DNA of 64,000 bases from Synechococcus sp. KORDI-49. Lineage in GTDB: Bacteria > Cyanobacteriota > Cyanobacteriia > PCC-6307 > Cyanobiaceae. Made by a program: the position numbers and the translations under genes. The notes under the pieces were generated by a model. The model did not search any database and was not told the DNA's origin. It was given only the letters and a program-made list of their open reading frames with translations. Positions 28,877 through 43,216 of the stretch are shown one piece after another. The stretch lies in assembly GCF_000737575.1 (NCBI RefSeq), contig NZ_CP006270.1, forward strand, positions 2,235,163 to 2,299,162, written 5' to 3'. The stretch's first letter is position 1. Every line of letters begins with the position of its first letter.

Positions 28877-30328
28877 GTGCCCCACGACTGGACAGCGCTG
28901 GAGAGGGATCTCCGCCGTCATCTGCCGTCGCGAGCCGTGTTGGCGAAGCGTCAGGACCTGCTCAGCTACGACTGTGACGGTTTGACACTTGAACGCCATC
29001 GGCCCCCGCTGGCAGTGCTCCCGGAGACCACCGAACAGGTGTCTCACGTGCTGCGGTTGTGCCGGGATCACCAGGTTCCTTTCGTGGCCCGCGGCAGTGG
29101 AACCGGTCTTTCAGGAGGCGCTCTGGTCGATCAGCAGGCCCTGCTGGTGGTGACCAGCCGCATGCGCAGGATTCTTGATCTCGATCTGGAGAACCAGCGC
29201 ATCACCGTTCAACCCGGCGTGATCAACAGCTGGGTGACCCGGGCGGTTGCGGGAGATGGGTTCTACTACGCGCCCGATCCGTCCAGTCAGGTGGTCTGCA
29301 GCATCGGTGGCAACGTCGCGGAGAATTCCGGCGGGGTCCACTGCCTGAAGTACGGGGTCACCAGCAACCACGTCCTCTCCCTGGAAGTGGTGCTTCCCGA
29401 TGGAACGGTGACGCAGCTCGGCAATGGACTGGCGGAATCAGCTGAGCTGGATCTGCGAGGGGCCTTCATCGGCAGCGAGGGCACCCTCGGGATCGCGACG
29501 GCGATCACGCTGCGTCTTCTGCGGGCGCCGGAGTGCGTGAATGTTCTCCTGGCGGACTTCGAGACGATGGAGGCTGCCGGCGAGGCGGTGCGGGCCGTCA
29601 CCGCGGAAGGACTGCTTCCGGCGGGCATGGAGATCATGGACAACGTCACGATCAACGCCGTGGACGATTTCTTCGGCTACGACGAGTACCCCCGCGATGC
29701 GGCCGCGGTGCTCCTGATCGAGCTGGATGGCCAGGTGGCGGAAGTGCAGGCCTCAGCGGAGCGGGCTGAGCAGTTGTGTCGTCATGCCGGGGCCCGCGGC
29801 CTGCGCCTTGCTCAGGACCCCACGGAGTGCGCGGTGCTCTGGAAAGGGCGCAAGTCGGCCTTCTCCGCCGTGGGAAAGATCACTCCCACCTATTACGTTC
29901 AGGATGGTGTTGTTCCCCGCAGCAGCCTGCCGTCCGTGCTGGCCGCCATCGAACGCCTGAGCCAGGATCACGGACTTCCCGTCGCCAATGTCTTTCACGC
30001 CGGCGACGGCAACCTTCACCCCCTGATTCTCTACGACGCCGGTGAGCCGGAGGCGGAGTCGCGGGTGAAGCAGCTGGGCGCCGCCATCCTGAAGGAATGT
30101 CTGGCAGTGGGTGGCAGCATCAGCGGCGAGCACGGGATCGGGGCGGACAAGCGGTGCTACCTCGACTGGATGTTCGAGCCGGACGATCTCCAGACCATGG
30201 CTCTGCTGCGCAGCGCCTTCGATCCGGATGGCCGGGCCAATCCGGGCAAGGTCCTTCCGACTCCGAGGACCTGCGGCGAGTCCGCGAAGCGATCGGTGAC
30301 GCTTCCCACCGGGGTTGAGGTCTTCTGA
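28877..30328 (+). CDS. glcD: FAD-linked glycolate/lactate oxidase subunit GlcD
   Basis: A 483-residue FAD-dependent oxidoreductase of the GlcD type, oxidising glycolate from photorespiration (or D-lactate). The PCMH FAD domain is seen in PLAVLPETTEQVSHVLRLC, VARGSGTGLSGGAL and GGNVAENSGGVHCLKYG. The C-terminal FAD-oxidase domain has FHAGDGNLHPLI and GGSISGEHGIGADKR. The start is GTG at 28877 (protein begins MPHDWTALERDL). GlcE and GlcF partners are not adjacent, so physiological electron acceptor and substrate are inferred. Confidence 0.93.
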   Translation: MPHDWTALERDLRRHLPSRAVLAKRQDLLSYDCDGLTLERHRPPLAVLPETTEQVSHVLRLCRDHQVPFVARGSGTGLSGGALVDQQALLVVTSRMRRILDLDLENQRITVQPGVINSWVTRAVAGDGFYYAPDPSSQVVCSIGGNVAENSGGVHCLKYGVTSNHVLSLEVVLPDGTVTQLGNGLAESAELDLRGAFIGSEGTLGIATAITLRLLRAPECVNVLLADFETMEAAGEAVRAVTAEGLLPAGMEIMDNVTINAVDDFFGYDEYPRDAAAVLLIELDGQVAEVQASAERAEQLCRHAGARGLRLAQDPTECAVLWKGRKSAFSAVGKITPTYYVQDGVVPRSSLPSVLAAIERLSQDHGLPVANVFHAGDGNLHPLILYDAGEPEAESRVKQLGAAILKECLAVGGSISGEHGIGADKRCYLDWMFEPDDLQTMALLRSAFDPDGRANPGKVLPTPRTCGESAKRSVTLPTGVEVF

Positions 30329-30344
30329 TTCCCCTGCTGTCCGT

Positions 30345-31211
30345 TCAGATCAGCAGGTCGTCTTCGTCCTCCTCATCGGCGGGTGGCCAGTCGAGATCGA
30401 CGGACACGGGGGCATGATCACTGGGCTGCTCGTTGCCCCGCTCCTGTTTGTGGATGACGCAGCAGCGTGCCAGTTCCAGCAGTTCATCACACAGATAGAT
30501 GTGGTCGATGCGCCAGCCGCGGTCCCGGTCCCAGGCTCCGGTGCGGTAGTCCCACCAGCTCCAGTGGCCGCTGTCGGGTTCGAAGACCCGGAAGACATCC
30601 TGCAGCCGGTCACCGAGAGCGGCCTTGAGTGCCTCGCGCTCGGCTGAGCTGGCCATGATCCCCCCCGTCAGTCGGTCGGGGTCATGAATATCGCGGGCCT
30701 CCATCGCGATGTTGAAGTCCCCCACCATGCACAGGGGCTCTCCCCGTTCCGCCTGCGCGTCCAGATACCGACGCAGGCAGGCCAGCCAGCTCAGTTTGTA
30801 GGGGTATTTCTCCGATTTGAGCCCTGAACCGTTGGGCACATAGAGGTTCAGCACCCGGACACCGTCAAGCCTGGCGCTGATCACCCGCTTCTGTTCGCTC
30901 AGGGTTCTGGCGTCGGAATCATCGGGAAGCTCGCCGATGAATCCGCAGCGGACGTCCTCAAGCGCCTCGCGACTCACCATGGCCACACCGTTGTAGGCCT
31001 TCTGACCATGGATGCTCACCCGCCACCCCGCCGCTTCAAAGGCCTTGAGGGGAAACTGCGGATCATCCACCTTGGTTTCCTGCAGGCAGAGCAGATCGGG
31101 CTGGTTGGTCTCCAGCCAGCTCAGCACCTGGTCAAGCCGGGTGCGCACGGAATTGACATTCCAGGAGGCGATCTGCACGGCGCTGTGGCGTCTGGTCGAG
31201 ACGCTTAGCAT
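30345..31211 (-). CDS. xth: Exodeoxyribonuclease III
   Basis: A 288-residue (or 277 from the GTG at 31178) EEP-family nuclease acting as AP endonuclease and 3'-exonuclease in base-excision repair. Conserved motifs: IASWNVNSVRTRLDQVLSWL, LLCLQETKVDD (metal-binding Glu), YVPNGSGLKSEKYPYKLSWL, GDFNIAMEARDI, WRIDHIYL and SDHAPVSVDLDW. The short C-terminal tail DEEDEDDLLI is acidic. Because homology starts at VQIASWNVN, the GTG at 31178 may be the true start. Confidence 0.94.
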   Translation of the reverse strand: MLSVSTRRHSAVQIASWNVNSVRTRLDQVLSWLETNQPDLLCLQETKVDDPQFPLKAFEAAGWRVSIHGQKAYNGVAMVSREALEDVRCGFIGELPDDSDARTLSEQKRVISARLDGVRVLNLYVPNGSGLKSEKYPYKLSWLACLRRYLDAQAERGEPLCMVGDFNIAMEARDIHDPDRLTGGIMASSAEREALKAALGDRLQDVFRVFEPDSGHWSWWDYRTGAWDRDRGWRIDHIYLCDELLELARCCVIHKQERGNEQPSDHAPVSVDLDWPPADEEDEDDLLI

Positions 31212-31233
31212 TCAACGATCGTTATCTGCAGGG

Positions 31234-31527
31234 ATGATCCTCCGGTTCACCTCCGTCGCTCTGGTGTTGCTCGCCCAGGTCCCTGCGGTTCAGGCCCAGG
31301 TGGAAACCCAGTACCAGAACAGGGAGGAGCGTGAGATCTACGGAAACGGCGCTCAGGGTTCCGAAAGCGGTTCGATCCTCGATGCCACCAACCCCATGGA
31401 TCTGATCAACCGCATCCGACAGGCAGGTTCTCTCGACGACGCCACACCCCCTGCCGACGCCATCGATGCCGCGCTCAAGGCGCTGGAACTGCAGCCTGTG
31501 GAAGAGAAGCAGGTCGCCCAGCCCTGA
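31234..31527 (+). CDS. Small predicted secreted protein, function unknown
   Basis: A 97-residue protein with a signal peptide (MILRFTSVALVLLAQVPAVQAQ) and an acidic, polar mature part containing GNGAQGSESGSILDATNPMDLINRIRQAGSLDDATPP, a pattern I associate with small periplasmic proteins of marine picocyanobacteria but cannot assign. It is divergent from xth by about 22 bases and its 3' end overlaps the convergent TPR gene by 53 bases. Confidence 0.7.
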   Translation: MILRFTSVALVLLAQVPAVQAQVETQYQNREEREIYGNGAQGSESGSILDATNPMDLINRIRQAGSLDDATPPADAIDAALKALELQPVEEKQVAQP

Positions 31528-32281
31528 TCCGCAGGGCACTCAATCCCCAGGATGAGGCCAGCGTGTCGATGAGCTCATCGGCGTCACCATCGTTGCCTCG
31601 TCTCTCGCGTGCCTTCTCAAGCAGATCACTCACCTCATCCGCCTTCCCCTGTTCCTGGCGCAGCATGGCCAGAGCCAGAAGCGGCCGGGCATCCGTCGGT
31701 GACTCCTCAGCCAGCTGTTGATAAAGCCCGGCAGCGGCGTTGACCTGCCCACTCCGGCGCTGCAGGTCCGCGAGGAGCATTCCCATGTCCCCACGTCGCC
31801 CTGGCCCAAGGTTCTGGAAGCGTTGTGTGAGCAACTGAAGCGCCTGGGTCGTGCGTCCGTCCTGGATCTCCACGAGAACGCGCAGTTTGAGCACCTCCGG
31901 ATGATCGGGGTGCAGCCGCAGCAGTTGATCGAGGTCCGTTCGGGCTCCACGGCTGTCGCCGTTCAGCCGACGCAGGTCCGCCATCAGCAGAGCCAGTCCC
32001 AGGGATCCCGGTTCCTTCTCCAGGAGTGGGTGCAGCACCTGCTGCGCCTCCTGAAGTCGGCCCAGGGCCAGAAGTCTCTCCAGAAGCTGGCGCTGACCCT
32101 CGTCATCGAGTTGCTCATCCCCGAGCTTCTGCATCAGATCGCTGACCTCCCGGTCCACCACCAGACGGCTGCCGCGGGCTGCTGTCTGCGGAGCGAATGA
32201 TGCGGCCGTGAGCCAGCCCACCAGGCCGGCTCCCAGGAGAGCTCCCGCCAGCAGGATCAGGCGGAGCGGGCGGGGCATCAC
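31475..32281 (-). CDS. Membrane-anchored tetratricopeptide-repeat protein
   Basis: A 268-residue protein with an N-terminal membrane anchor (LRLILLAGALLGAGLVGWLTAASFA) and a helical TPR-type region: ERLLALGRLQEAQQVLHPLLEKEPGSLGLALLMADLRRLNGDSRGARTDLDQLLRLHPDHPEVLKL and a further repeat near residues 185-230. The layout resembles the CcmI/CycH-type TPR proteins of cytochrome c assembly, but nothing else links it to that pathway. An ATG one codon downstream (32278) is an equal start. The 3' end overlaps a convergent gene by 53 bases. Confidence 0.7.
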   Translation of the reverse strand: MMPRPLRLILLAGALLGAGLVGWLTAASFAPQTAARGSRLVVDREVSDLMQKLGDEQLDDEGQRQLLERLLALGRLQEAQQVLHPLLEKEPGSLGLALLMADLRRLNGDSRGARTDLDQLLRLHPDHPEVLKLRVLVEIQDGRTTQALQLLTQRFQNLGPGRRGDMGMLLADLQRRSGQVNAAAGLYQQLAEESPTDARPLLALAMLRQEQGKADEVSDLLEKARERRGNDGDADELIDTLASSWGLSALRIRAGRPASLPQAAVPAP

Positions 32282-32369
32282 AGCGCTGTCTGTGAGTGGA
32301 AGTCTGAAGAGGATTCAGGGTGCTGGCTACAGTCGGCCTGCGGGTTTTGCCGCCGCCCCAATCAATTTC

Positions 32370-33017
32370 ATGCGCAACCACCCGATTCCCCCGGTCACCG
32401 AACCGCTGCAGTACCGGGCGATCGGTTTGGTCCGCGGGACTTACACCCCGAAAGAGCCCGAGCAACTGACGCGAGGAGCCTTGCTCGACAGCAACGGCGT
32501 CGAACTGGAGACAGTGGTGCTCGGACGGGTGCTGACCCTGATGCGTCGGCATCTGGCCATGGATCAGTCCCATCTCTGGGTGGTCTACCCACGCTGCAGG
32601 GAGAGCGATCAACTGCACCTGCAGATTGCCGGGATCTGGGAGCCCAGCACCCTCGACCCGGATCAGAGTGATGCCGATGACACCCTGCCGGAAGGGGATG
32701 ACTACTTCTCAATCCGAGGTGAACTGATCTTCACCAAACCCGAAACGGGTGAGCTTGTGGTGAAGGTGCGTCAGCAACCCCGTGCGGATGGAACCCGCCC
32801 GCTTCCCTTCAAGCTGCAGATGAAGGGCGAACTCCCCCTGGAGCATCTGCGTCATTTCGTCAGTCTGGACATCCGCCGGCAGGGGCAGGAGCTGCATCTC
32901 GAGCGTCATGAGGTGATCGCACCGATGCCCACGCGCGGTGGCAAGACCAAGGGGGGGCGCGGCCAGGGGGGGCGGCGCGGTGCGGCGGCACCCCGGAGCA
33001 CCCGGGCCCGCGGCTGA
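32370..33017 (+). CDS. Conserved-looking protein with basic Gly/Arg tail, function unknown
   Basis: A 215-residue soluble protein. The folded part (residues 1-185: YRAIGLVRGTYTPKEPEQLTRGALL, LWVVYPRC, YFSIRGELIFTKPETGELVVKVRQQPR) is beta-rich; the last ~25 residues are a basic Gly/Arg/Ala tail (GGKTKGGRGQGGRRGAAAPRS), which could bind nucleic acid or phosphate groups. No named family recognised. It opens the tight plus-strand cluster to phoX; its TGA overlaps the ATG of the M41-type peptidase gene. The start ATG at 32370 gives MRNHPIPPVTEPLQY. Confidence 0.72.
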   Translation: MRNHPIPPVTEPLQYRAIGLVRGTYTPKEPEQLTRGALLDSNGVELETVVLGRVLTLMRRHLAMDQSHLWVVYPRCRESDQLHLQIAGIWEPSTLDPDQSDADDTLPEGDDYFSIRGELIFTKPETGELVVKVRQQPRADGTRPLPFKLQMKGELPLEHLRHFVSLDIRRQGQELHLERHEVIAPMPTRGGKTKGGRGQGGRRGAAAPRSTRARG

Positions 33018-33661
33018 TGGCGGAGGGCCAGGGATCCACGGGCACCCTCAGGGCCGCCATCGTCGTCGCAGCCATCACGGGGCTCGGTGCCTTCGGCCCG
33101 GTGATGGGGATCTCCCCGGCCTGGATTGTCGTGGTGGTCGGAGGCGGTCTGGTGGCTCTCAGTGTCGATGCCGCCAGCTGGCAGGGGATGGGTGGTCATC
33201 TGCTTGCTGAAGCGATGCCCGGTGGTGAGGGGCGACTGCGCCGCATCGCCGTTCATGAGGCGGGTCATCTGCTCATCGCCGAAGCGGAGGAGCTTCCGGT
33301 ACAGCGGGTGATGGTGGGAACCCTGGCGTGTCTGCGCGCGGGGCTGCGCAGCAGTGGAGCCACGGAGTTCACCGTTCCGGAGAGTGTGCGGATGCCGCTG
33401 GAGGATCTACGACGCTGGAGCCGTGTCCTTCAGGCCGGCATCGCCGCTGAGACCGTGATCTACGGCTCGGCTCGGGGTGGTGCCGATGACAGGGCCCTGC
33501 TGGGCCGCCTCTGGGGGCTCTCGGGGCATGACGTCGCCACGGCGCAGCGGGAGCAGCGTCGCGCCCGCCGCGAAATCGAGCAGCAGCTGCGCCAGGACCG
33601 TTCCCAGCTGGAGGATCGCGTCGGAACGCTTCTGGCGGAGGCTCCGAGGCTCGGACGATGA
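33017..33661 (+). CDS. Stand-alone M41-type membrane metallopeptidase (FtsH-like, no AAA domain)
   Basis: A 214-residue protein with two N-terminal membrane helices (about 12-30 and 34-52) followed by a peptidase-like domain. The zinc motif RRIAVHEAGHLLIAE gives His80, Glu81 and His84. Downstream, QAGIAAETVIYGSARGGADDRALLGRLW aligns with the FtsH block that ends in the third zinc ligand, here Asp157 or Asp158. The AAA+ ATPase domain of FtsH is absent. A proteolytic role at the membrane is inferred; substrates are unknown. It overlaps its neighbours on both sides (TGATG with the previous gene, ATGA with larC). Confidence 0.75.
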   Translation: MAEGQGSTGTLRAAIVVAAITGLGAFGPVMGISPAWIVVVVGGGLVALSVDAASWQGMGGHLLAEAMPGGEGRLRRIAVHEAGHLLIAEAEELPVQRVMVGTLACLRAGLRSSGATEFTVPESVRMPLEDLRRWSRVLQAGIAAETVIYGSARGGADDRALLGRLWGLSGHDVATAQREQRRARREIEQQLRQDRSQLEDRVGTLLAEAPRLGR

Positions 33662-34929
33662 ACGGCTCCCCGCCCTTCCATGGTCGTCCTCTTCACATCG
33701 ACTGTCCGACAGGGGTGGCGGGGGACATGCTGCTGGCGGCCCTGCTCGATCTTGGCGTCCCTGAGGCGGTGATCGAGACGGCTCTGGCGGATCTGGGCCT
33801 CGCCGGTCTCTACCAGCTCCGGAGCGAGGAGAGTCGCAGTTCCGGCCTGCGGGGTCTCCGCATCACGGTGAAGGCTCTCGAGCCGGAGCCCCCCCATCGT
33901 CAGTGGGCGGACATCCGTCAGCGGATCGAGGCAGCACCGCTGACTCCCGCTCTGCAGCAACGCGTGCTGGCGGTGTTCGAGGCTCTGGCGGAGGCGGAGG
34001 CCGCAGTGCATGGCACCAGCCCCGAATCGGTGCACTTCCATGAAGTGGGTGCCATGGATGCGCTGGTGGACGTGGTGGGGGTCTGTGCCGCCATGGAGCA
34101 TCTGGCGCCCCTGCGTGTCACCTGCACGGCACCTCCTGCAGGACACGGCAGCGTGAGGTCAGCCCATGGGCAGCTGCCTGTTCCTGTGCCGGCGGTGCTG
34201 GAGATGGCCCGGCGCCGGCAGATCCCGCTGCGTCATGACGGTGATCTGCCGGCCGGTGAGCTCACCACACCCACCGGTCTGGCCCTGCTGTCGGTGCTGG
34301 TGGATCACTTCTCCCCGCCCCAGCGGCTCACACCAGGGGCGATCGGCATCGGTCTCGGCCATCGGGAACTGGATCGTCCCAACCTGCTGCGGCTTATTCA
34401 GCTGAAGCCCCAGATCCCTGAGCAGGAGCCTGCATTCTCGGGAACCGATGGCTCTGATCCGGTCCCGCGCTGGCAGCCGCTGGTGGTGCAGGAAGCCTGG
34501 ATCGATGATGCGACACCGGAGGACCTCGCTCTGCTGCTGGCGGCGCTGCAGCGGGGAGGTGCCGTGGATGCGGCCTCGACGCCGCTTCAGATGAAGAAGG
34601 GGCGCCCCGGTCAGTCGGTCACGGCTCTGGTGCTTCCGGATCGGGCTGCCGCCCTGCGTGAGATCTGGTTCGGCAGCAGCCCCACGATCGGTCTGCGGGA
34701 ACGGGATCAGGGGCGCTGGCTGCTGCCCCGGCGAAACGGCATCCTTCACACGCCCTGGGGCGCGCTCCGGGCCAAGCAGGTCCGACGTCCGGACGGCAGT
34801 TGCACGGTCAAGCCGGAGGCAGATGATCTGCAGCGGCTCAGTCAGGACAGCGGACAGACCATCGCCGCCCTGCGGGCCTCCCACGCTGGCTGGGCGTTCA
34901 GCAGTGATCAGCCCTGGTCCTGGACATGA
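33658..34929 (+). CDS. larC: LarC, nickel-pincer cofactor nickel insertase (DUF111)
   Basis: A 423-residue LarC. In Lactobacillus LarC inserts nickel into the dithio-carboxylated pyridinium mononucleotide in a CTP-dependent reaction, completing the cofactor of lactate racemase. Seen here: HIDCPTGVAGDMLLAALLDLG, VHFHEVGAMDALVDVVGVCAAM, HGQLPVPVPAVLEM, GELTTPTGLALLSVL, GHRELDRPNLLRL and the C-terminal PLQMKKGRPGQSVTALVL. Both halves are in one frame, without the programmed frameshift known in Lactobacillus. LarA, LarB and LarE are not in this window. It overlaps both neighbouring genes by 4 bases. Confidence 0.9.
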   Translation: MNGSPPFHGRPLHIDCPTGVAGDMLLAALLDLGVPEAVIETALADLGLAGLYQLRSEESRSSGLRGLRITVKALEPEPPHRQWADIRQRIEAAPLTPALQQRVLAVFEALAEAEAAVHGTSPESVHFHEVGAMDALVDVVGVCAAMEHLAPLRVTCTAPPAGHGSVRSAHGQLPVPVPAVLEMARRRQIPLRHDGDLPAGELTTPTGLALLSVLVDHFSPPQRLTPGAIGIGLGHRELDRPNLLRLIQLKPQIPEQEPAFSGTDGSDPVPRWQPLVVQEAWIDDATPEDLALLLAALQRGGAVDAASTPLQMKKGRPGQSVTALVLPDRAAALREIWFGSSPTIGLRERDQGRWLLPRRNGILHTPWGALRAKQVRRPDGSCTVKPEADDLQRLSQDSGQTIAALRASHAGWAFSSDQPWSWT

Positions 34930-35843
34930 GCTGGCTTCGCAAGCCCAGCCTCTGGATCACCCTGGCCAGCCTCGGGTTCATGGCCGTGGCGTTGCATCAG
35001 CAGTCCGGCCAGCTGATGGACCAGAGCCTTGATGGCCGGGGTTGGGCCTGGTTGCTGCTCGGGATGGGCCTGACCTGGGCCAGCATCCTGTTCAACGGTC
35101 TGGCCTGGTGCGTGCTGGTGGCCTGGCTCGGTCATCCGCCGGATGAAGTCGCTCTGGTTCCGCTGTTCGTCCGCAGCAACCTTCTCAAGTACCTGCCAGG
35201 TGGCATCTGGCATCTGCTGGAGCGGGTCCGGGTGCTGCGCGGCTCCATCGGGGCGGGCCCCGCCCTGGCGACGGTGATCCTGGATCCGCTGCTCATCGTG
35301 GTGGCGTCGCTGCTGCTTCTGCCTCTCGGGGGCTGGCAGGGAGGTCTGATGCTGCTGGCGCCGCTGCCGGCCCTGCTGATGCTGCCGCGCTGGCGGGAGC
35401 CGCTGCTGCAGAGACTGGAACGTCGCAAGGCGGAGCAATTGCAGAGCTCTGCCGGTGGAGACCTTGCCGAGCATGCATCTGGAAGCGGGCGCGGCGACTA
35501 CCCCTGGGCGCCGCTGGCTGCTCAGCTGGGATTCGTGCTCACCCGGTTCGCCGGTTTTCTCTGCTGCGTTCAGGCATTTCAACTGCAGCAACCCTCCCTG
35601 CCTGTCTGGCTTGCGGCCTTCGCTCTGGCCTATGCCGTGGGTCTGGTGGTGCCTGGGGCACCTGGAGGACTTGGTGTGTTCGAAGCCACGCTGCTGCTGC
35701 GTCTCGGCAGCACCGTGCCGGAAGCTCCACTCCTGGCCGCCGTGCTCAGTTACCGGGTGATCTCCACCCTGGCGGATGTCGTCGCAGCGCTGTCGGTTGC
35801 CGCCGACAGCGCCCTGCTGCGACGGTTGAAGGCCCATCCCTGA
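34926..35843 (+). CDS. LPG-synthase-TM/flippase-like membrane protein (UPF0104)
   Basis: A 305-residue polytopic protein with about eight hydrophobic segments. The blocks RSNLLKYLPGGIWHLLERVRVLRG and PGAPGGLGVFEATLLLRLG are typical of the membrane region of lysylphosphatidylglycerol synthases and related UPF0104 proteins, which flip or anchor lipid substrates. The aminoacyltransferase domain of MprF is absent. It is linked by a 4-base ATGA overlap to larC and is 8 bases from the phytase-like gene. Confidence 0.8.
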   Translation: MSWLRKPSLWITLASLGFMAVALHQQSGQLMDQSLDGRGWAWLLLGMGLTWASILFNGLAWCVLVAWLGHPPDEVALVPLFVRSNLLKYLPGGIWHLLERVRVLRGSIGAGPALATVILDPLLIVVASLLLLPLGGWQGGLMLLAPLPALLMLPRWREPLLQRLERRKAEQLQSSAGGDLAEHASGSGRGDYPWAPLAAQLGFVLTRFAGFLCCVQAFQLQQPSLPVWLAAFALAYAVGLVVPGAPGGLGVFEATLLLRLGSTVPEAPLLAAVLSYRVISTLADVVAALSVAADSALLRRLKAHP

Positions 35844-35851
35844 TCACTGCC

Positions 35852-36817
35852 ATGGATGCCGCGCCTCCGCTGCCGCTCCCCTGTCCGCTGCAGGCCGGCT
35901 GGGAGCTGGTGCGGACGATCGAGCTGCCCAGGACCCTCGCTGATGGTCGGCCCCTGGGTGGGGTCTCAGCGGCGGCCTACCAGCGGAAGCAGGATCGCCT
36001 CTGGTTGCTCAGCGATGCACCCATGGGGCATCTGGTGCCCTGGGGTGGACTCGCCCAGGTGCTCCGGGGCCAACGGGACCTGCTGCGACCCGGCCGCAGA
36101 GTGCTGCTGAAGGGAGGCGATGGCCAGCCTCTGACCGAGGACTTCGATGGAGAGGGGCTGGTGGTTCAGGGCCGTCAGGCCTGGATCGCCAGTGAGGGGC
36201 GCCGTTCCTTGGAACGTCCGCCCCGGTTGATCCAAATTGACCTCGGCAGCGGTCGGCTGCGGCAGGAGCTGCCGATGCCCGAGGCCTGGCGGGCCACCAC
36301 TGGGCAGGGCCTTGGCTCCAACAAAGGCCCGGAATCACTCACGGCCCTCGGCCCCGGGGACCTTCTGCTGGCGGCGGAGGCGCCGTTGCTGCAGCACCAA
36401 CCCGGAGATGGAATCAGCCTGATGCGCCGCCGTCCCGGTGACGCGATCCGCTCCGCAGGGGCGCTTGATTCGGGTGCCTACGGCCGCCATGACGGACTGA
36501 CGGAACTGCTCGCCCTGCCACTTCGGCAGCAGCTGCTGGGACTGCGGCGGGGGTTTGAGATGCCGGATCAATGGTCGGCCTGGCTTCAGCTGTTCGCCTT
36601 TCCCGATCCGCAGGGTCCTCCATTGCAGCCGATCATCGGCTGGAACCTGCTGGAGGCTGGCCTGCCTCCAGATAACTGGGAAGCCATGGCGGTGGGCCCC
36701 ACGCTGTCGGATGGACGACAGACGCTGGTGTTGGCCAGTGATGACAACTTCAATCCGCTTCAGTCAAGCTGGATTGCGGTGCTGACTCCCCGCCGCACCG
36801 CTGCTTGCACCGATTGA
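35852..36817 (+). CDS. Phytase-like esterase family protein
   Basis: A 321-residue protein of the esterase-like activity of phytase family (beta-propeller). Recognised from LGGVSAAAYQRKQDRLWLLSD, DFDGEGLVVQGRQAWIASEGRR, LGSNKGPESLTALGPGDLL and PDNWEAMAVGP...LVLASDDNFNP. Members are thought to hydrolyse phosphate esters; activity has not been shown for this group to my knowledge. No clear signal peptide is visible, unusual for a scavenging enzyme. It lies 10 bases upstream of phoX, so co-expression and phosphate acquisition are inferred. Confidence 0.83.
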   Translation: MDAAPPLPLPCPLQAGWELVRTIELPRTLADGRPLGGVSAAAYQRKQDRLWLLSDAPMGHLVPWGGLAQVLRGQRDLLRPGRRVLLKGGDGQPLTEDFDGEGLVVQGRQAWIASEGRRSLERPPRLIQIDLGSGRLRQELPMPEAWRATTGQGLGSNKGPESLTALGPGDLLLAAEAPLLQHQPGDGISLMRRRPGDAIRSAGALDSGAYGRHDGLTELLALPLRQQLLGLRRGFEMPDQWSAWLQLFAFPDPQGPPLQPIIGWNLLEAGLPPDNWEAMAVGPTLSDGRQTLVLASDDNFNPLQSSWIAVLTPRRTAACTD

Positions 36818-36827
36818 GGCTTGACCG

Positions 36828-38975
36828 ATGCGCCGTCGTTCCGTGCTCTCCCTGCTCGGCCTCGGCGGAGCCGGTGTGTTGACGGCCAAAGGACTGTCGG
36901 GCTGCATGGTGCAAGGGGGCAACAGCAGTGCGGCCAAAGGATTTCCGTTTCATCCGGTGCGGGTGCCCTTGCCGGTGGACAGTGATGGCCTCAACGCCTC
37001 GGAGCAGCGGGCCACCTACCGGGAGCTGGCGGTGGAGGACCGGCTGACGGTCCCGGAGGGATTTCGGTCCCAGCTGCTGGCGGCATGGGGCGATCCACTC
37101 GGCGACAGCCGCTTCGGGTTCAACAACGATCACCTCGGCTTTGTCCAGCACGGTCCGGACCGGGCATCGATGACGGTGAACTTCGAATACATCAGCGCCG
37201 TGCCCTGGGTGCAGGGCTTCGAGGAGGTGGTGGGTAAGCCTCTGCCCTTCGCAGACCTCGTGTCTGTTCTGCAGCCCAGCGATGGCGTCATCGACTGCGG
37301 TGAACTGCCGGCCGGCGACCGACGTCTGCAGCAGATCCGTGCGGTCGCGGATGAAGCGATGACCGATCTCGGGATCGGGGTGATGACCCTGCAGCGGGAT
37401 GGTCAGGGTCAGTGGCAACGGGCGCAGGGCGCCCAGGATCGCCGTATCACGGGGATCAGTGGTCTTGAGGACCCCAAGCAGCAGCTGCTCAGCACCGGTC
37501 CGGCAACCGCGGTGTTCACGGCCGGTAAACGGCAGGGCTACGACGATGGCCTGGGCGACAGGATCGTCGGCACCTTCGCCAACTGCGGCGGTGGCATCAC
37601 GCCCTGGGGAACGGTGCTCAGCGCTGAGGAGAATTTCCAATCCCAGGTGCCGGAACCGGTTTATGCCGATGGCAGTGCGGCCGCACCTTCACAGCGTCCC
37701 TTGGTCTGCCGGAAAGGAAAACTGGGTGGGCTGGGCAATGTCTACGGACTGGCGGGCAACAAGTACGGCTGGATGGTGGAGGTGGATCCGACCTCGGCTG
37801 GCCGGGCAGCGGTGAAGCACACGTCCCTCGGCCGCTTCCGCCACGAAGCCGTGGCGGTCCGGGCTGAAGCCGGCAAGCCGCTTCAGGTGTATTCGGGCTG
37901 TGATCGCCGCGGTGGGCATCTCTATCGCTTCGTCAGCACGGACCGTGTCGAAACGGTCCAGGACAAGCGGAATTCACGGTTGTTCGAGGCCGGCGAGCTT
38001 CAGGTGGCGCGCTTCCGTGCCGATGGCAGTGGTGAATGGCTGGCGGTGACACCGGAGGCCGAGGTGAATCCTTTCCGTCCAAGCCGTTTCAGCGATGCGG
38101 ATCTCGGCTGTCCTGTGGAGCTGCCCCACAGCGATCGCAGTCAGGCGGGAGCGGAACTCTTCCGGGAGGATGCGGCTGTCGAGGACTACTGCCGCCGTTT
38201 CGCCACCCTGTCGGATCTGTACCGGGGTGAGGGCGAGGCGCTGCAGGGGGCGATTCTGGTGGATGCCCACCTGGCGGCCAGCGCGATCGGGGCGACCCCC
38301 ACGGCCCGTCCGGAGGACACCAAGATCGATCCGATCAGTGGAGATCTGCTGATCGCTTTCACCTCCGGATCCCCCGGATCGACAGGGGGTGCTGACCCTG
38401 CCGTGTTCCAGGGACCCGACGGACAGAGCAGCTGGCCCAACGGATGGGTGATGCGCCTGAGTGAGTCCGGCCAGAACCGCTTCACCTGGCGCATGGCTGT
38501 GACCGGTGGAACCCCCTGGGCCGGCGGTCTCGGTTTCACCAATCCCGACAATGTCGCGCTCGACAGCAAGGGAAACCTCTGGATCGTCACCGACCGTTCG
38601 ATGAAGTCGTCAGCGGGCGATGTGTTCGGCAACAACAGCTGCTGGTTCGTTCCCCGCAAGGGCAGCCAGGAGGAACAGGCGGCCTGCTTTGCCACGGGAC
38701 CGATGGAGTGCGAGGTGACGGGGGTGTGCCTCGATCAGGCCGAGTCGTCGCTGTTTCTGGCGGTTCAGCATCCCGGTGAGGTGAACGGCAGCCGGGCTCG
38801 GGGGGATGAGGAGGTTCAGGCCCACGAGCTGCAGGATCGTGATGGTGGCGTTTTCCAGCAACTGCGCACAGTGCCGCTGGGGTCCAACTGGCCGGCTCAG
38901 GCTCCGGGCCGGCCCCCCCGCCCGGGCGTCGTGGCGATCCGCCGCCTCAACGGTCAGCCTTTGCTGGAGGCCTGA
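36828..38975 (+). CDS. phoX: PhoX-type alkaline phosphatase
   Basis: A 715-residue PhoX (DUF839) phosphatase, releasing phosphate from organic esters outside the cytoplasm. Characterised PhoX enzymes use an Fe-Ca active site. The N-terminus MRRRSVLSLLGLGGAGVLTAK is a Tat signal; a lipobox-like LSGC follows at Cys26. Family blocks: RFGFNNDHLGFVQ, GTVLSAEENFQSQV, YSGCDRRGGHLYRFVS and FTNPDNVALDSKGNLWIVTD. It ends a six-gene cluster and its 3' end overlaps the convergent iron-transporter permease gene by 22 bases. No obvious Pho box lies within the 10-base upstream gap. Confidence 0.93.
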   Translation: MRRRSVLSLLGLGGAGVLTAKGLSGCMVQGGNSSAAKGFPFHPVRVPLPVDSDGLNASEQRATYRELAVEDRLTVPEGFRSQLLAAWGDPLGDSRFGFNNDHLGFVQHGPDRASMTVNFEYISAVPWVQGFEEVVGKPLPFADLVSVLQPSDGVIDCGELPAGDRRLQQIRAVADEAMTDLGIGVMTLQRDGQGQWQRAQGAQDRRITGISGLEDPKQQLLSTGPATAVFTAGKRQGYDDGLGDRIVGTFANCGGGITPWGTVLSAEENFQSQVPEPVYADGSAAAPSQRPLVCRKGKLGGLGNVYGLAGNKYGWMVEVDPTSAGRAAVKHTSLGRFRHEAVAVRAEAGKPLQVYSGCDRRGGHLYRFVSTDRVETVQDKRNSRLFEAGELQVARFRADGSGEWLAVTPEAEVNPFRPSRFSDADLGCPVELPHSDRSQAGAELFREDAAVEDYCRRFATLSDLYRGEGEALQGAILVDAHLAASAIGATPTARPEDTKIDPISGDLLIAFTSGSPGSTGGADPAVFQGPDGQSSWPNGWVMRLSESGQNRFTWRMAVTGGTPWAGGLGFTNPDNVALDSKGNLWIVTDRSMKSSAGDVFGNNSCWFVPRKGSQEEQAACFATGPMECEVTGVCLDQAESSLFLAVQHPGEVNGSRARGDEEVQAHELQDRDGGVFQQLRTVPLGSNWPAQAPGRPPRPGVVAIRRLNGQPLLEA

Positions 38976-40462
38976 TCGAGGCTGGGCACCAGGGCCATCG
39001 ATGCCACCAGCCCCAGCACCAGGATCATCAGTGCCGGCAGCAGCGCTTCCGCCAGCCGCTCGTCACTGGCGTACTGATAGACACGCACGGAGAGCGTGTC
39101 GAAATCAAAGGGCCGCAGAGCGAAGGTCAGCGGCAGTTCCTTCACGGTGTCCACGAACACCAGCAGCAGTCCCACCGTCAGGGGACCCCGCAGGAGCGGC
39201 AGATGCACCCGCTGCAGCACCTGCTGCCAGTTGAACCCCATCCCGGTGGCCGCTTCATCGAGACTGGGGCTGATGCGTTCCAGGGCGGCATCCAGGCCGC
39301 CTTTGGCCACGGCCAGGAAACGGTCGCCATAGCCCCAGAGCAGCAGGACCAGCGGGGCCAGCTGCCAGGGGCCGCCGGTGAGCAGCAGAGCCAGTGCCAG
39401 CACGGTGCCGGGCACGGCGTAGCCCATGCCGGCCAGGAAGGTGAGGCTCTGCAGCCAGCGGGCTTCACTCCAGCGCTTGGCGATCGCCAACAGCAGGGCC
39501 GTGACCACAGCCAGGACGGCGGCGGCCAGCGCCAGCAACAGGCTGCGGAGACTGAGCTGCCAGAGGTCGGCCTCCAGGTTGCCTGCCAGCTGTTCGAGAT
39601 TCGTGGCGGCCCAGATCAGCGGCGTCCCCAGGCTCAGCAAAGGCGGAATCAGAGTCAGCAGCTGGGCCACGAGTGCCCGAGGCCCCTGCAATGTCCAGGC
39701 TGTGGCATCGCCTCCGGCCACACCGTCACTCCAGCGGCGGCTGCGACGCCGCAGCCGCCGTTCGCACACCACCAGAGTCAGCACGATCACCAGGGTGATC
39801 AGGGCCAGGGTGATGGCACCGGTTGGATCGCTTTCGGCCTGCCAGGCCTCCAGGATGCCGGCCGACAGGCTGGGGATGCCGAGGAGCTGAACGGCTCCCA
39901 GCTCGTTGACGATCTCCATGCCCATCAGGGCGACACCGGCTCCGATCGCCGGAAGCGCGATCGGCAGCGCGACCCGCCGAAAGGCGGCCCATGGACCGAT
40001 CCCGAGGCTGCGGCAGGCCTCCAGCTGCCGTCTGCCGCTCATCGCGAAACTTTCTGTGCTGAGCAGAAACACGTAGGGATACGTGGACAGAGCCATGACG
40101 GCGATGCCCCAGGCCAGGCCGTGGATGCGCCAGCCCTGGCGGCTGCCCAGATCCACCAGCGTCGCTGAAAGCAGATAGGCCGGGGTGGCCAGGGGGATCA
40201 GCTGAGCGATGCGCAGCCAGCGACGGCCGGGAAATCGGCAGTTGATCAGCAGCCAGCCGTTGGCGGTGCCGATCAAGGTTCCGGCGATGGCACTGCCCAG
40301 CAGCAAGCTCAGCGTGCCGCGGATCTGAAGGCCACCATCCGGGCCCAGGCTGCCGAGACCGTCGCGGATTCCCTGCAGTCCCTCCCCGATGAGGTTCAGC
40401 AGGGGCCAGATCGCCAGCAGAGCAAGCCCGGCAGCGGTGAGTCCCAGCAGCCGACGACTCAT
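38954..40462 (-). CDS. futB: Ferric iron ABC transporter permease (FutB-type)
   Basis: A 502-residue fused permease with two repeats of about six membrane helices. Each half carries the ABC-permease coupling loop: EACRSLGIGPWAAFRRVALPIALPAIGAG in the first, DEAATGMGFNWQQVLQRVHLPLLRGPLTVG in the second. This is the arrangement of FutB/SfuB-type Fe3+ permeases of the plasma membrane. It overlaps the downstream end of futA by 4 bases (ATGA) and is transcribed after it. The ATP-binding subunit is not adjacent. Confidence 0.93.
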   Translation of the reverse strand: MSRRLLGLTAAGLALLAIWPLLNLIGEGLQGIRDGLGSLGPDGGLQIRGTLSLLLGSAIAGTLIGTANGWLLINCRFPGRRWLRIAQLIPLATPAYLLSATLVDLGSRQGWRIHGLAWGIAVMALSTYPYVFLLSTESFAMSGRRQLEACRSLGIGPWAAFRRVALPIALPAIGAGVALMGMEIVNELGAVQLLGIPSLSAGILEAWQAESDPTGAITLALITLVIVLTLVVCERRLRRRSRRWSDGVAGGDATAWTLQGPRALVAQLLTLIPPLLSLGTPLIWAATNLEQLAGNLEADLWQLSLRSLLLALAAAVLAVVTALLLAIAKRWSEARWLQSLTFLAGMGYAVPGTVLALALLLTGGPWQLAPLVLLLWGYGDRFLAVAKGGLDAALERISPSLDEAATGMGFNWQQVLQRVHLPLLRGPLTVGLLLVFVDTVKELPLTFALRPFDFDTLSVRVYQYASDERLAEALLPALMILVLGLVASMALVPSLDQASSKG

Positions 40463-41502
40463 TGCCAGCCGTTGGCAGCCATCAGCTCGACGGCTTTGGC
40501 ATTCAGCTCACCGAGCCGCTGCGCCGACACCGCTGCCGGCTGGAACGGGCCCCAGGCCTTCACAACAGGATTGTTGCCGAGGTCGCGCAGGGGATATTCA
40601 TGATTGGCCGTGGCGTAGCCCTCCTGAGCCTGATCGGAGCTGAGGAACTCCAGGAAGCGTCGGGCGGCGTCGGGGTTGCGGCTGGCACGGGTCACGCCAC
40701 CACCGGTGATGTTCACGTGGACGGGGTCGGGCCAGCGCACTGACACCTTGCTGGAAAGGGCCAAGTCAGCGTCGCCCTTGTCACCAGCCTGCATGCGGCC
40801 GAGGTAGTAACTGTTGGCCAGAGCGACGCCGCAGTCGCCCTGAGCGACGGCCCGGATCATGGGCGTGTCACTGCTGAACACCGGCTGAGCCAGGTTGGCC
40901 ACCATTCCCTGAATCCATTGAGTCGTCTCCTGCTCCCCGCGGGTGTCCAGCATGAATGCCACCAGCGACTGGTTGTAGACGCTGCGACGGTTTCGCAGGC
41001 AGAGCCTGCCCTTGAGAGCTGGAGCTGCCAGGTCTTCATAGCGGCTCACCTCGTTGGCCTTCACCTTCTCGGCATTGAACATCGGCGCCCGCAGCCGGCG
41101 TGTGAAACCGAACCAGCGGTTCTTGCTGTCGCGCAGATCGGCCGGAACCGACCGGTTGAGCGTTTCCGACTCGATGGGCTGAAAAAGATCCATCCCGGTC
41201 GCGCGATCGAGACGGGCCGCATCCGCAAGAATCAGGACATCCGCAGGGGAGTCCGCACCTTCCTTGGCGAGACGTTGAATCAGGGCGTCATCCTTGGCTT
41301 CCAGGAGCTTCACCTGGATGCCTGTTTCCTGCGTGAAGCGGTCGTAAAGCTGCTTGTCGGTGTTGTAGTGGCGTCCTGAATAGACACCGATCTCCGTCGA
41401 TTCCTTGCTGTCGCAGGCGATCAGCAGGATCGCGATGGACACGGCCAGAGAGGCCTGTGCCGCCGCTTTGCAAAAGCGGTACTTATTGAGAATGAAATGC
41501 AT
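40459..41502 (-). CDS. futA: Ferric iron ABC transporter substrate-binding lipoprotein (FutA/IdiA-type)
   Basis: A 347-residue periplasmic binding protein. The signal peptide ends in a lipobox (ILLIAC), so it is probably membrane-anchored through Lgt. Iron-site residues are visible in VYSGRHYNTDKQLYDRF and the paired Tyr in ANSYYLGR, typical of FutA/IdiA proteins, which bind Fe3+ through tyrosines. In cyanobacteria these are induced by iron limitation; IdiA also protects photosystem II. It is first in a two-gene operon with futB; about 140 bases upstream hold a dyad and a terminator. Confidence 0.94.
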   Translation of the reverse strand: MHFILNKYRFCKAAAQASLAVSIAILLIACDSKESTEIGVYSGRHYNTDKQLYDRFTQETGIQVKLLEAKDDALIQRLAKEGADSPADVLILADAARLDRATGMDLFQPIESETLNRSVPADLRDSKNRWFGFTRRLRAPMFNAEKVKANEVSRYEDLAAPALKGRLCLRNRRSVYNQSLVAFMLDTRGEQETTQWIQGMVANLAQPVFSSDTPMIRAVAQGDCGVALANSYYLGRMQAGDKGDADLALSSKVSVRWPDPVHVNITGGGVTRASRNPDAARRFLEFLSSDQAQEGYATANHEYPLRDLGNNPVVKAWGPFQPAAVSAQRLGELNAKAVELMAANGWQ

Positions 41503-41517
41503 TCGCGGCGTTGCTCT

Positions 41518-41534
41518 TTGCGAACGATACGCAA
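41518..41534. promoter_or_regulatory. Inverted repeat upstream of futA, candidate operator
   Basis: A 17-base dyad, TTGCG-N7-CGCAA, lies 16 bases upstream of the futA start codon, in the position of a repressor site over the promoter or leader. It does not match the AT-rich Fur consensus well. An iron-responsive role is inferred only from its place. Confidence 0.35.
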
Positions 41535-41581
41535 TAGCGATACCCCGCTCCGCGGTCTCTCCGTTCGGCTGTTACACGACG

Positions 41582-41608
41582 AAAAAAATCCCCCGCCAGA
41601 GGCGAGGG
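41582..41608 (-). terminator. Rho-independent terminator of the yjbQ-phhB-cobW-peptide operon
   Basis: On the minus strand a GC-rich 8-bp stem (CCCTCGCC / GGCGGGGG, loop TCT, one G-T pair) is followed by ATTTTTTT. It lies 35 bases after the stop of the 48-residue peptide gene and separates the metal/pterin operon from futA. Confidence 0.88.
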
Positions 41609-41642
41609 AAGAGTGGTGAATCGAGTTGATTGCTTCGAGGAA

Positions 41643-41789
41643 TCAGCGACGCTGGTCGCGAACCGGGATCGGAATCAGAACAGGCTCCCGCAGGCCACCA
41701 CCGCTGTTGTCATCGTCGGAATCGGCCAGCAGCCAGAGCAGCAGACTTGTCACCAGCAGAAGGGCAACCAGGGTGATGGGCTCTGCCAT
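41643..41789 (-). CDS. Small single-helix membrane protein, function unknown
   Basis: A 48-residue protein: MAEPITLVALLLVTSLLLWL is one membrane helix, followed by an acidic turn (ADSDDDNSGGG) and a basic tail ending RDQRR. GGAG lies 9 bases before the ATG at 41789 and decides this start over an ATG five codons upstream. It begins 28 bases after the cobW stop on the same strand and is followed by a terminator, so it is the last gene of that operon. No family recognised. Confidence 0.65.
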   Translation of the reverse strand: MAEPITLVALLLVTSLLLWLLADSDDDNSGGGLREPVLIPIPVRDQRR

Positions 41790-41817
41790 GGGGGTGTTCT
41801 CCATCACGACACACTAG

Positions 41818-42909
41818 TCAGTTCAGCCCGTTTCCGCTCGATCCGGCGGAGGGGTGACCGGCGGCTTCCTCATCCACGCAGGCCTGGAGCTGTTGCCGCA
41901 GGGTGTCGTGATCGATGTCGCGTCCGATCAGCACAAGCTGGTTCTTGCGTTCGCCGGTCCAGTCGGTGTCGTCAATCGAAAAGCGCTTTCCTGCGAGATG
42001 GAACACGTGACGTCGTTCGCTTTCGTTGAACCAGAGAATGCCCTTGGCGCGGAACACCTCAGCGGGCAGCTGATTGTCCAGGAAGTTCTGGAACCTTCGC
42101 AGGGCGAAAGGCCCATCACTCTGGAACGACAGCGACGTGAAACCGTCGACGGCGAGGTGATCCGAGTGGCTGTGGCCGTGGTCGTGATGGCTGTGGCTGT
42201 GGTCGTGGTCGTGGTCGTGGCTGTGGTCGTGGTCGTGGTCGTGGTCGTGATGGTTGTGGTCGTGATGCTCGTCTTGCGTCGACACCTTGTCCGACTCGAA
42301 CAGACCGACGCTGAGCAGCAGAGGCAGCGGCACGTCCCCCTGGGTGGACCGCAGGATGCGGGCATCGTTCTTCACCTCCCGGAGCTGCTGTTCAACGGTC
42401 TGCAACCGCTCCTCCTCCACGAGGTCACACTTGTTCAGCATCAGGATGTCCCCGTAGACCACCTGGGCCCGCCCGACCTGGGTGTCGAGAACGCTCTGGT
42501 CGAAGTTCTCCGCATCGATCAGCGTGATGATCGAGTCCAGTCGCGTCTGATCGCGCAACTCGCTGCCGAGGAAGGTCATCGCCACCGGCAGAGGATCGGC
42601 CAGACCAGTGGTCTCCACAACGATGTAGTCCAAGGCCTCTGGGCGTTCAAGCACCCGCTCCACCGTCTGCATCAACTCGTCGTTGATCGAGCAGCAGATG
42701 CAGCCGTTGCTCAGCTCCACCATCTCCTCTCCTGTGGAGACGATGAGTTCGTTATCGATGCCGATCTCACCGAATTCATTCACCAGCACAGCGGTCTTCA
42801 CGCCCTGCTGATTGCTGAGAATGTGGTTGAGCAGAGTGGTTTTCCCGGCACCGAGGAAGCCCGTGAGAATCGTCACCGGGACCCCAACCGGGGCTGATGC
42901 TGCAGTCAT
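41818..42909 (-). CDS. CobW/COG0523-family GTPase metallochaperone with His-rich region
   Basis: A 363-residue G3E GTPase. Walker [17 protein letters not shown] (residues 16-31), [10 protein letters not shown], the metal-binding CxCC in [10 protein letters not shown] (Cys70, Cys72, Cys73) and [10 protein letters not shown] are intact, followed by a CobW_C domain. Between the domains (about 217-250) is a run of His-Asp/His-Ser repeats that would bind zinc or another metal. COG0523 proteins act as metal chaperones, often under zinc limitation. It is third in the yjbQ-phhB-cobW-peptide run. A cobalt/cobalamin role is possible but less likely given the His-rich insert. Confidence 0.92.
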
Positions 42910-42928
42910 GAGATCTGCCCTGTTGAGC

Positions 42929-43216
42929 TCATGCTGGCAGCAGAGCGTCGATGGCTGCCGAAAGCTCGGCGTCCATCGTGCTCAGGCCTCCCAGATCGTG
43001 GGTGGAGAGTTCGATCTTCACTCGGTTGTAGACGTTGTTCCAGTCGGGGTGGTGCTGACGGGATTCGGCCAGCAGTGCTACGCGGCTCATGAAACCGAAG
43101 GCTTCCACAAAGTCGCTGAACACAACGCTGCGCCGCATGGCGGTGTCGCCCACCTCCCAGGCGGGACGCTCCTGTTGAAGCTGCTGGCGTTGTTCAGGCG
43201 TGAGCAGGGTCGGCAT
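42929..43216 (-). CDS. phhB: Pterin-4a-carbinolamine dehydratase
   Basis: A 95-residue dehydratase recycling 4a-hydroxytetrahydropterin. The sequence has [62 protein letters not shown], with the catalytic HHP motif and distal His. Length is normal. It lies 24 bases after yjbQ and 19 bases before cobW. No aromatic amino-acid hydroxylase is nearby, so its substrate pterin is unclear; in cyanobacteria homologues have been linked to pterin or carboxysome contexts. Confidence 0.93.

Follow-up and report, generated by a model that had tools for sequence, protein, structure and literature searches.

Here we surveyed a gene neighbourhood of Synechococcus sp. KORDI-49 in which a block of genes around larC, a gene of nickel-pincer cofactor synthesis, faces the iron-type permease gene futB, with a phytase-like gene (phyt) and the alkaline phosphatase gene phoX lying between them. 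The stretch analyzed (the window, 64,000 bases) covers positions 2235163-2299162 of the single-contig genome of 2,585,813 bases. We consider this neighbourhood to be an old convergent arrangement with a variable slot between the larC backbone and futB, and give this reading a probability of roughly 0.73. The backbone, in the order BAS-(M41L)-larC-LPG, faces futB in most of the family loci examined, and the LPG-futB junction holds phyt with phoX, phyt alone, a metallophosphatase gene, other genes or nothing. This neighbourhood is genuine and of old standing; the results do not show it to be the single metal-linked phosphate unit which the initial annotation had suggested.

The coordinates and junctions were recomputed, and the order, overlaps and gaps of the eight genes agreed with the initial annotation. 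The features are as follows.

32370..33017, plus strand: BAS, first backbone gene, a protein of 215 amino acids (AlphaFold2 model and alignment of relatives)
33017..33661, plus strand: M41L, membrane protein like the FtsH protease domain without the AAA part
33658..34929, plus strand: larC, nickel insertion in nickel-pincer cofactor synthesis (PF01969, TIGR00299, NF052512)
34926..35843, plus strand: LPG, protein with a lysylphosphatidylglycerol-synthase-type transmembrane domain and no synthase domain (PF03706)
35852..36817, plus strand: phyt, phytase-like beta-propeller, slot cargo (PF13449)
36828..38975, plus strand: phoX, predicted exported iron/calcium alkaline phosphatase, slot cargo (PF05787, PDB 3zwu)
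38954..40462, minus strand: futB, iron-type ABC permease (PF00528)
40459..41502, minus strand: futA, iron-binding lipoprotein (PDB FutA relatives, conserved Tyr positions)
41517..41538, minus strand: palindromic motif of 22 bases upstream of futA, Fur-box-like, conserved in relatives

BAS and M41L overlap by 1 base, M41L and larC by 4, and larC and LPG by 4; LPG is followed by phyt after 8 bases and phyt by phoX after 10, while the 3′ ends of phoX and futB overlap convergently by 22 bases and futB overlaps futA by 4. The BAS frame is open from a GTG at 32208 and an earlier start is possible; the alignment of relatives begins at the ATG at 32370. In the region 30000-43000 the counts of promoter-like sites (0 against 1.0 expected) and terminator-like sites (3 against 5.0 expected) were uninformative; one terminator-like site lies at 41609-41589 on the minus strand, between cobW and futA.

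The backbone and the LPG-futB slot

The survey was done on 151 sampled genomes of the family, of which 95 are good, and on 109 fetched larC-LPG loci with the window excluded. These loci were chosen and are not a random sample: they cover most genomes of the genus codes g1 and g34, a selection from other genera, and two named loci that entered through phoX. Duplicate loci of the same genome were removed before the locus, tree and phyt-neighbour counts, and only L079 and L109, which belong to one genome, were both kept in the phyt and PhoX trees.

The larC gene was found in 137 of the 151 genomes and in all 95 good ones. BAS is present in 109/109 and M41L in 86/109 of the larC-LPG loci, and a convergent futB in 96/109, so that the iron permease is often found facing the larC block. 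Since the same order recurs across many genomes, the arrangement is not due to chance. Two of the 13 loci lacking futB stop at a contig end, and the other 11, of freshwater type, show none in the fetched stretch. In small genomes (about 1.6-2.0 Mb, presumably of Prochlorococcus and related organisms, 19 loci) the LPG-futB distance is 35 to 588 bases with no recognised gene between.

The 96 futB-facing loci were sorted by the content of the slot. LPG and futB are at most 150 bases apart, with no recognised gene, in 27; phyt stands alone in 19, phyt with phoX in 16 and a metallophosphatase gene in 14, and in the remaining 20 the distance exceeds 150 bases, with other genes or no recognised ones. 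The synteny comparison confirmed that the order is conserved beyond the strain, as 20 genomes spread over four genus codes (7 in g1, 10 in g34, 2 in g48 and 1 in g54) have phoX in the LPG-futB slot, namely the 16 loci, the window, G108, G166 and G195, the last inferred across two contigs. The metallophosphatase is an unrelated, calcineurin-like protein (PF00149) of 330 amino acids (for example L195 9631-10623), and its N-terminus MLLSRRRMLQ looks by eye like a signal of the twin-arginine translocation (Tat) type. Its carriers are G158 and one clade of 13 genomes, with the phoX-bearing G160 branching between them in the backbone tree; G168 and G171 have it in the slot and phoX elsewhere. Further occupants are a major facilitator superfamily transporter, a cation-diffusion facilitator and a Fur-family regulator, the regulator gene lying between LPG and phyt-phoX in G054 (L078 7765-8244). 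With its fixed flanks and niche-related variable content the slot is like the flexible gene slots and genomic islets of picocyanobacteria; unlike them, it is a small convergent junction which repeatedly holds phosphatase-like genes.

The initial annotation had placed the phosphatase in one operon with the nickel-cofactor and membrane genes, beside the iron transporter, and suggested a metal-linked phosphate-scavenging unit. In its full form, all of these genes would make up a single co-regulated operon. In this strain the junctions are tight across six genes, and four relatives have a similar LPG-phyt spacing. Most of the evidence goes the other way. In most fetched loci the larC block and futB occur side by side and phoX is missing, the block is present without phoX in 47/95 good genomes (by count), and the phyt-phoX pair moves without the block and occurs also elsewhere, once behind pstS. 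A tight LPG-phyt join is present in only 5 of the 20 slot-phoX genomes; in G166, which has no phyt, LPG and phoX are 37 bases apart, and the remaining genomes have an LPG-phyt distance of at least 150 bases, another gene or an opposing gene. LarA was found in 0/8 genomes, the first gene codes for a class-wide OB-fold protein, futA has its own conserved upstream motif, and a crude scan gave no outstanding Pho box. One operon of this kind is therefore very improbable. As larC and futB keep together without phoX, the co-location of phoX with them is not to be taken as function.

Distribution and history of phyt and phoX

PhoX-like matches, some of them partial, were found in 59/151 family genomes (48/95 good ones), in 10/34 genomes of the genus (6/19 good ones) and in 11/31 genomes of the genus of G034 (10/24 good ones). 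All trees were built by a quick method without bootstrap. The backbone tree has 61 rows, of which G158 and G190 were not judged for futA, leaving 59 judged rows; the states of G195 and G199 were assigned manually, in each case from two contigs, and G161, G166, G167 and G188, which have no usable larC locus, are not included. Slot phoX requires a minimum of 7 changes on this tree, and locus futA requires 6.

In the phyt tree 40 rows of the slot lineage (38 at the slot, with one genome twice, and 2 moved) are separated from 32 others, where phyt stands beside phoX at other sites, with a split support of 98. In the tree of PhoX the 19 slot rows, 18 of them distinct, all belong to one clade of 27 with support 96, and the other 8 members are moved genes or lie on contigs too short to tell. 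The length filters of the gene trees dropped partial genes and the phoX of G181 (L207), which is in two reading pieces. Of 96 loci in which 1100 bases or more are available upstream of phoX, phyt lies immediately upstream in 53, never in another orientation, and is lacking in 43; at the slot it is upstream in 17/17. The association kept at several sites is that of phyt with phoX, and not that of larC with phoX. In the simplest reading, the slot lineage of phyt-phoX would have been inherited in place, often lost and moved a few times, gain and loss being indistinguishable here.

It is also conceivable that the junction is an insertion hot spot which phyt-phoX entered several times by transfer, without inheritance in place. 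The patchy presence of phoX and the changes needed on the backbone tree are in its favour, and the window PhoX is closer to those of G112 and G147 than the backbone suggests. Transfer does happen, since in G034 the pair lies at a different site and is 86% and 83% identical to that of the window, against only 70% for its glcD. However, the slot sequences of phyt group into a single supported lineage spanning four genus codes, as do those of PhoX, and phyt alone holds the same place in 19 loci. Repeated entry is thus considered unlikely, with some weight left to it, and the old arrangement with a variable slot is preferred.

The moved pair of G034 follows PstS (TIGR00975 over cut-off) and the chromate transporter ChrA, with PhoH upstream, and that of G154 lies between housekeeping genes. 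In both L230 (G168) and L082 (G034) PhoH and a gene like lysine decarboxylase lie close to the moved phoX, which is accompanied by phyt in G034 alone; this neighbourhood is possibly a second recurrent phoX site. The search for PhoX relatives in phages gave 2 weak records only. In plasmids 121 records were found, all below 60% identity, including Synechocystis pSYSG, where the relative of strain PCC 6803 (53%, L286) adjoins a recombinase gene and no phytase-like gene is annotated beside it. Two records titled Bifidobacterium breve and Gracilibacteria (L159, L180) carry a cyanobacterial-type phoX and are probably mislabelled or contaminated metagenome bins.

The iron genes and their association with PhoX

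The futB product matches PF00528 in two stretches, and its iron specificity is deduced from its partner futA. The futA product matches the iron-binding structure 8c4y of PDB at 2.3e-92, and the Tyr residues of YSGRHY, VYNQS and SYY align; these we take to be the iron ligands. Like the known FutABC/IdiA system, futA matches the solved FutA of the Prochlorococcus and Synechocystis type. Unlike it, the locus-type futA of the window is 43-48% identical to the marine IdiA type and has no futC adjoining: no FutC ATPase gene lies between futA and cobW in the window, the rest of the genome not having been searched for one. The marine IdiA-type protein sits elsewhere in most marine genomes, and the genome of the window holds both kinds.

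The futA of the window kind (67-75% identical) adjoins futB mainly where phoX does, being present in 13/16 rows with slot phoX against 2/43 rows without it. Over independent pairs the association is 5 same, 1 opposite and 1 with no difference, for which a sign test gives p=0.22. The tie to iron made by the initial annotation stands in part: locus FutA tends to occur with slot phoX, but not significantly over these pairs.

These results bear on the idea of an iron-phosphate coupling block, in which phyt-phoX and locus futA are kept together and FutAB supplies the iron of PhoX under phosphate stress. The requirement of PhoX for iron and calcium, as given in the available part of PMC11098088, is in line with this, as is the connection which PhoB makes in Synechocystis between phosphate shortage and iron limitation in the available part of PMC11126600. 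The futA enrichment holds in both g1 and g34, and the two slot-phoX genomes of g48 have futA adjoining futB. Against it, the independent pairs make the iron link only suggestive, freshwater-type loci have a futA (52-61%) adjoining futB without slot phoX, five slot-phoX genomes have no locus futA (G054, G155, G166, G186, G202), futA has an upstream motif of its own, and phoX occurs also unlinked. Such a block is improbable. A related reading is doubtful: the junction would be a phosphatase exchange slot whose place beside the iron importer is due to PhoX, the main cargo and an iron enzyme, and phyt-phoX and locus FutA would be gained and lost as one functional iron-phosphate block in marine Synechococcus, while relatives without them carry the metallophosphatase (14 loci) or nothing.

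The palindrome upstream of futA resembles a Fur box in its sequence. It is the only match in the window at up to 3 mismatches (0 expected), and it was found in 9/9 searched genomes with locus-type futA and in 0/3 without; G182 has a second, weaker match elsewhere. The strict Fur 7-1-7 consensus gave 0 matches in the window against 1.33 expected. The futA-futB pair would be driven by its own promoter, probably controlled by iron.

Where g1 genomes lack locus futA, an ABC ATPase gene often fills the gap between futB and cobW (L186 16144-17811; L195 12341-13429). It was labelled futC-like, with all NCBIfam models below cut-off, and a ferritin gene is beside it in two genomes (L185, L186). The locus futA of G167 (L232) is broken.

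The old arrangement with a variable slot has also to be weighed against several of these observations. Three of the slot contents are phosphatase-like, which may point to functional selection of the slot. In the window strain and four relatives, phyt follows LPG closely enough for a single transcript. The unequal distribution of locus-type futA speaks against a model of pure neighbours, some of the 109 loci were fetched because phoX is near, and the 11 freshwater-type loci without futB make the facing pair less than universal, for which our confidence was slightly lowered. We still prefer this arrangement, in which the backbone genes (OB-fold, peptidase-like, nickel-cofactor step, flippase-like) would be housekeeping neighbours and phoX may be read together with them in this strain because of its position.

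Encoded proteins, phosphate regulation and significance

The families proposed in the initial annotation held for 7/8 genes; no family matches the protein called a basic unknown, and the supposed M41 peptidase stays under its cut-off. PhoX matches PF05787 at 295.1 against a cut-off of 24 bits over residues 69-650 and the PDB PhoX 3zwu at 3.4e-48, with the metal-site motifs aligning at motif level. Its N-terminus, MRRRSVLS followed by LSGC, looks by eye like that of a Tat lipoprotein. It shares the family and the blocks NCxxGxTPWGT..EEN and GRFxHE with the PhoX of Pseudomonas fluorescens (3zwu/4a9v) and marine Synechococcus. From knowledge of the family, it would be exported and free phosphate from organic phosphate by means of iron and calcium. 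In marine picocyanobacteria its presence is variable, as stated in the available text of PMC10119275.

The phyt product matches PF13449 (147 against 27.6 bits), and its AlphaFold2 model is all-beta and confident, with a predicted local distance difference test (pLDDT) score of 91. The best structural match is the propeller of E. coli YjiK (Z 22.6, root-mean-square deviation (rmsd) 2.4, 226 aligned residues), and a lower one is the calcium-activated nucleotidase SCAN (Z 16.4, rmsd 3.6, 241 aligned). By sequence no convincing solved relatives were found, and by fold PhoX is not among the matches listed. A shared fold alone does not show function. Nine Asp/Glu positions are invariant in 28 sequences. 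The N-termini were compared by eye between the window (35852-36817) and L079, L114, L124 and L163; a signal peptide is seen in several freshwater relatives and none in the window phyt and its nearest g1 relatives. From knowledge of the family, phyt may be a second propeller hydrolase in the same pathway as PhoX, probably calcium-dependent and here perhaps cytoplasmic.

A crude scan for Pho boxes, made with a consensus in an 11-base register and without shuffles, gave no outstanding site upstream of BAS or phyt, and none of the 12 best sites of the window lies upstream of these genes. Among the other loci, the higher scores of this crude scan came from L122, L138, L181 and L186, the last (G155) with a candidate that precedes phyt by 87 bases. 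The available parts of two papers point in opposite ways on PhoX regulation: the PhoX genes of Nodularia are strongly induced under phosphate limitation (PMC9846622), whereas the WH8102 protein called PhoX is scarce and its level is unchanged at low phosphate (PMC3865332). The LPG-futB slot and the phyt partner go unmentioned in the available parts of the literature on known PhoX systems, the slot being absent from those of PMC11098088, PMC3610870, PMC9846622, PMC11126600, PMC5839243, PMC11796402, PMC3865332, PMC10119275 and PMC9361551.

BAS has no Pfam match at 1e-3, and the same is true of M41L. The AlphaFold2 model of BAS (mean pLDDT 81.6) is predicted as two OB folds with a basic tail of low confidence, residues 190-215 being below 50. 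The best Foldseek match is the single-stranded DNA-binding protein of Thermus (E 3.5e-4, TM 0.39/0.41, rmsd 8.8). A BAS match is present in 115/244 genomes of the phylum, with two misses of the same class among the rows shown (109 matchless rows are unlisted). BAS is a widespread cyanobacterial protein and, going by its model, likely a nucleic-acid-binding one. A role as user of the nickel-pincer cofactor was considered and dropped in view of the two OB folds and the wide presence of the gene in the class.

For M41L the best family is Peptidase_M41 (PF01434), below cut-off (18.7 against 29.9 bits); this family matches 22/22 M41L relatives at E up to 1, and HEAGH (the HExxH zinc motif) and GGxDD are invariant in 22/22 sequences. 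Matches to solved FtsH structures were at E 0.02-0.1, none convincing by sequence. The top sequence matches in the structure database, to triosephosphate isomerase (best E 0.007 with a profile), were judged to be chance. LPG matches PF03706 (45.7 against 33.4 bits) in its transmembrane part only, and stays far below the cut-off of the full bifunctional MprF model (37.3 against 600 bits).

LarC is over the cut-offs of TIGR00299 (191 against 90 bits), NF052512 (105 against 50 bits) and PF01969, with both LarC1 and LarC2 domains over cut-off, and matches 12bi of PDB at 3.5e-61. As in the known Lar system (LarA, LarB, LarC, LarE), LarC and LarE (TIGR00268, 8/8 genomes) are present; unlike in that system, LarA (PF09861) was absent from all 8 genomes searched; the control matched in 2/14. 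This fits the available account in PMC11796402, that many cyanobacteria make the nickel-pincer cofactor for a protein yet to be identified. No link between this cofactor and phosphate emerged from the results. The fixed neighbours of larC, in genomes without LarA, are BAS and LPG.

The present data separate a conserved gene block from a phosphate cargo which varies from strain to strain. They provide a fixed neighbourhood of larC in LarA-lacking cyanobacteria, and a concrete locus for studying a possible joint evolution of iron supply and iron-dependent phosphatases in the ocean.

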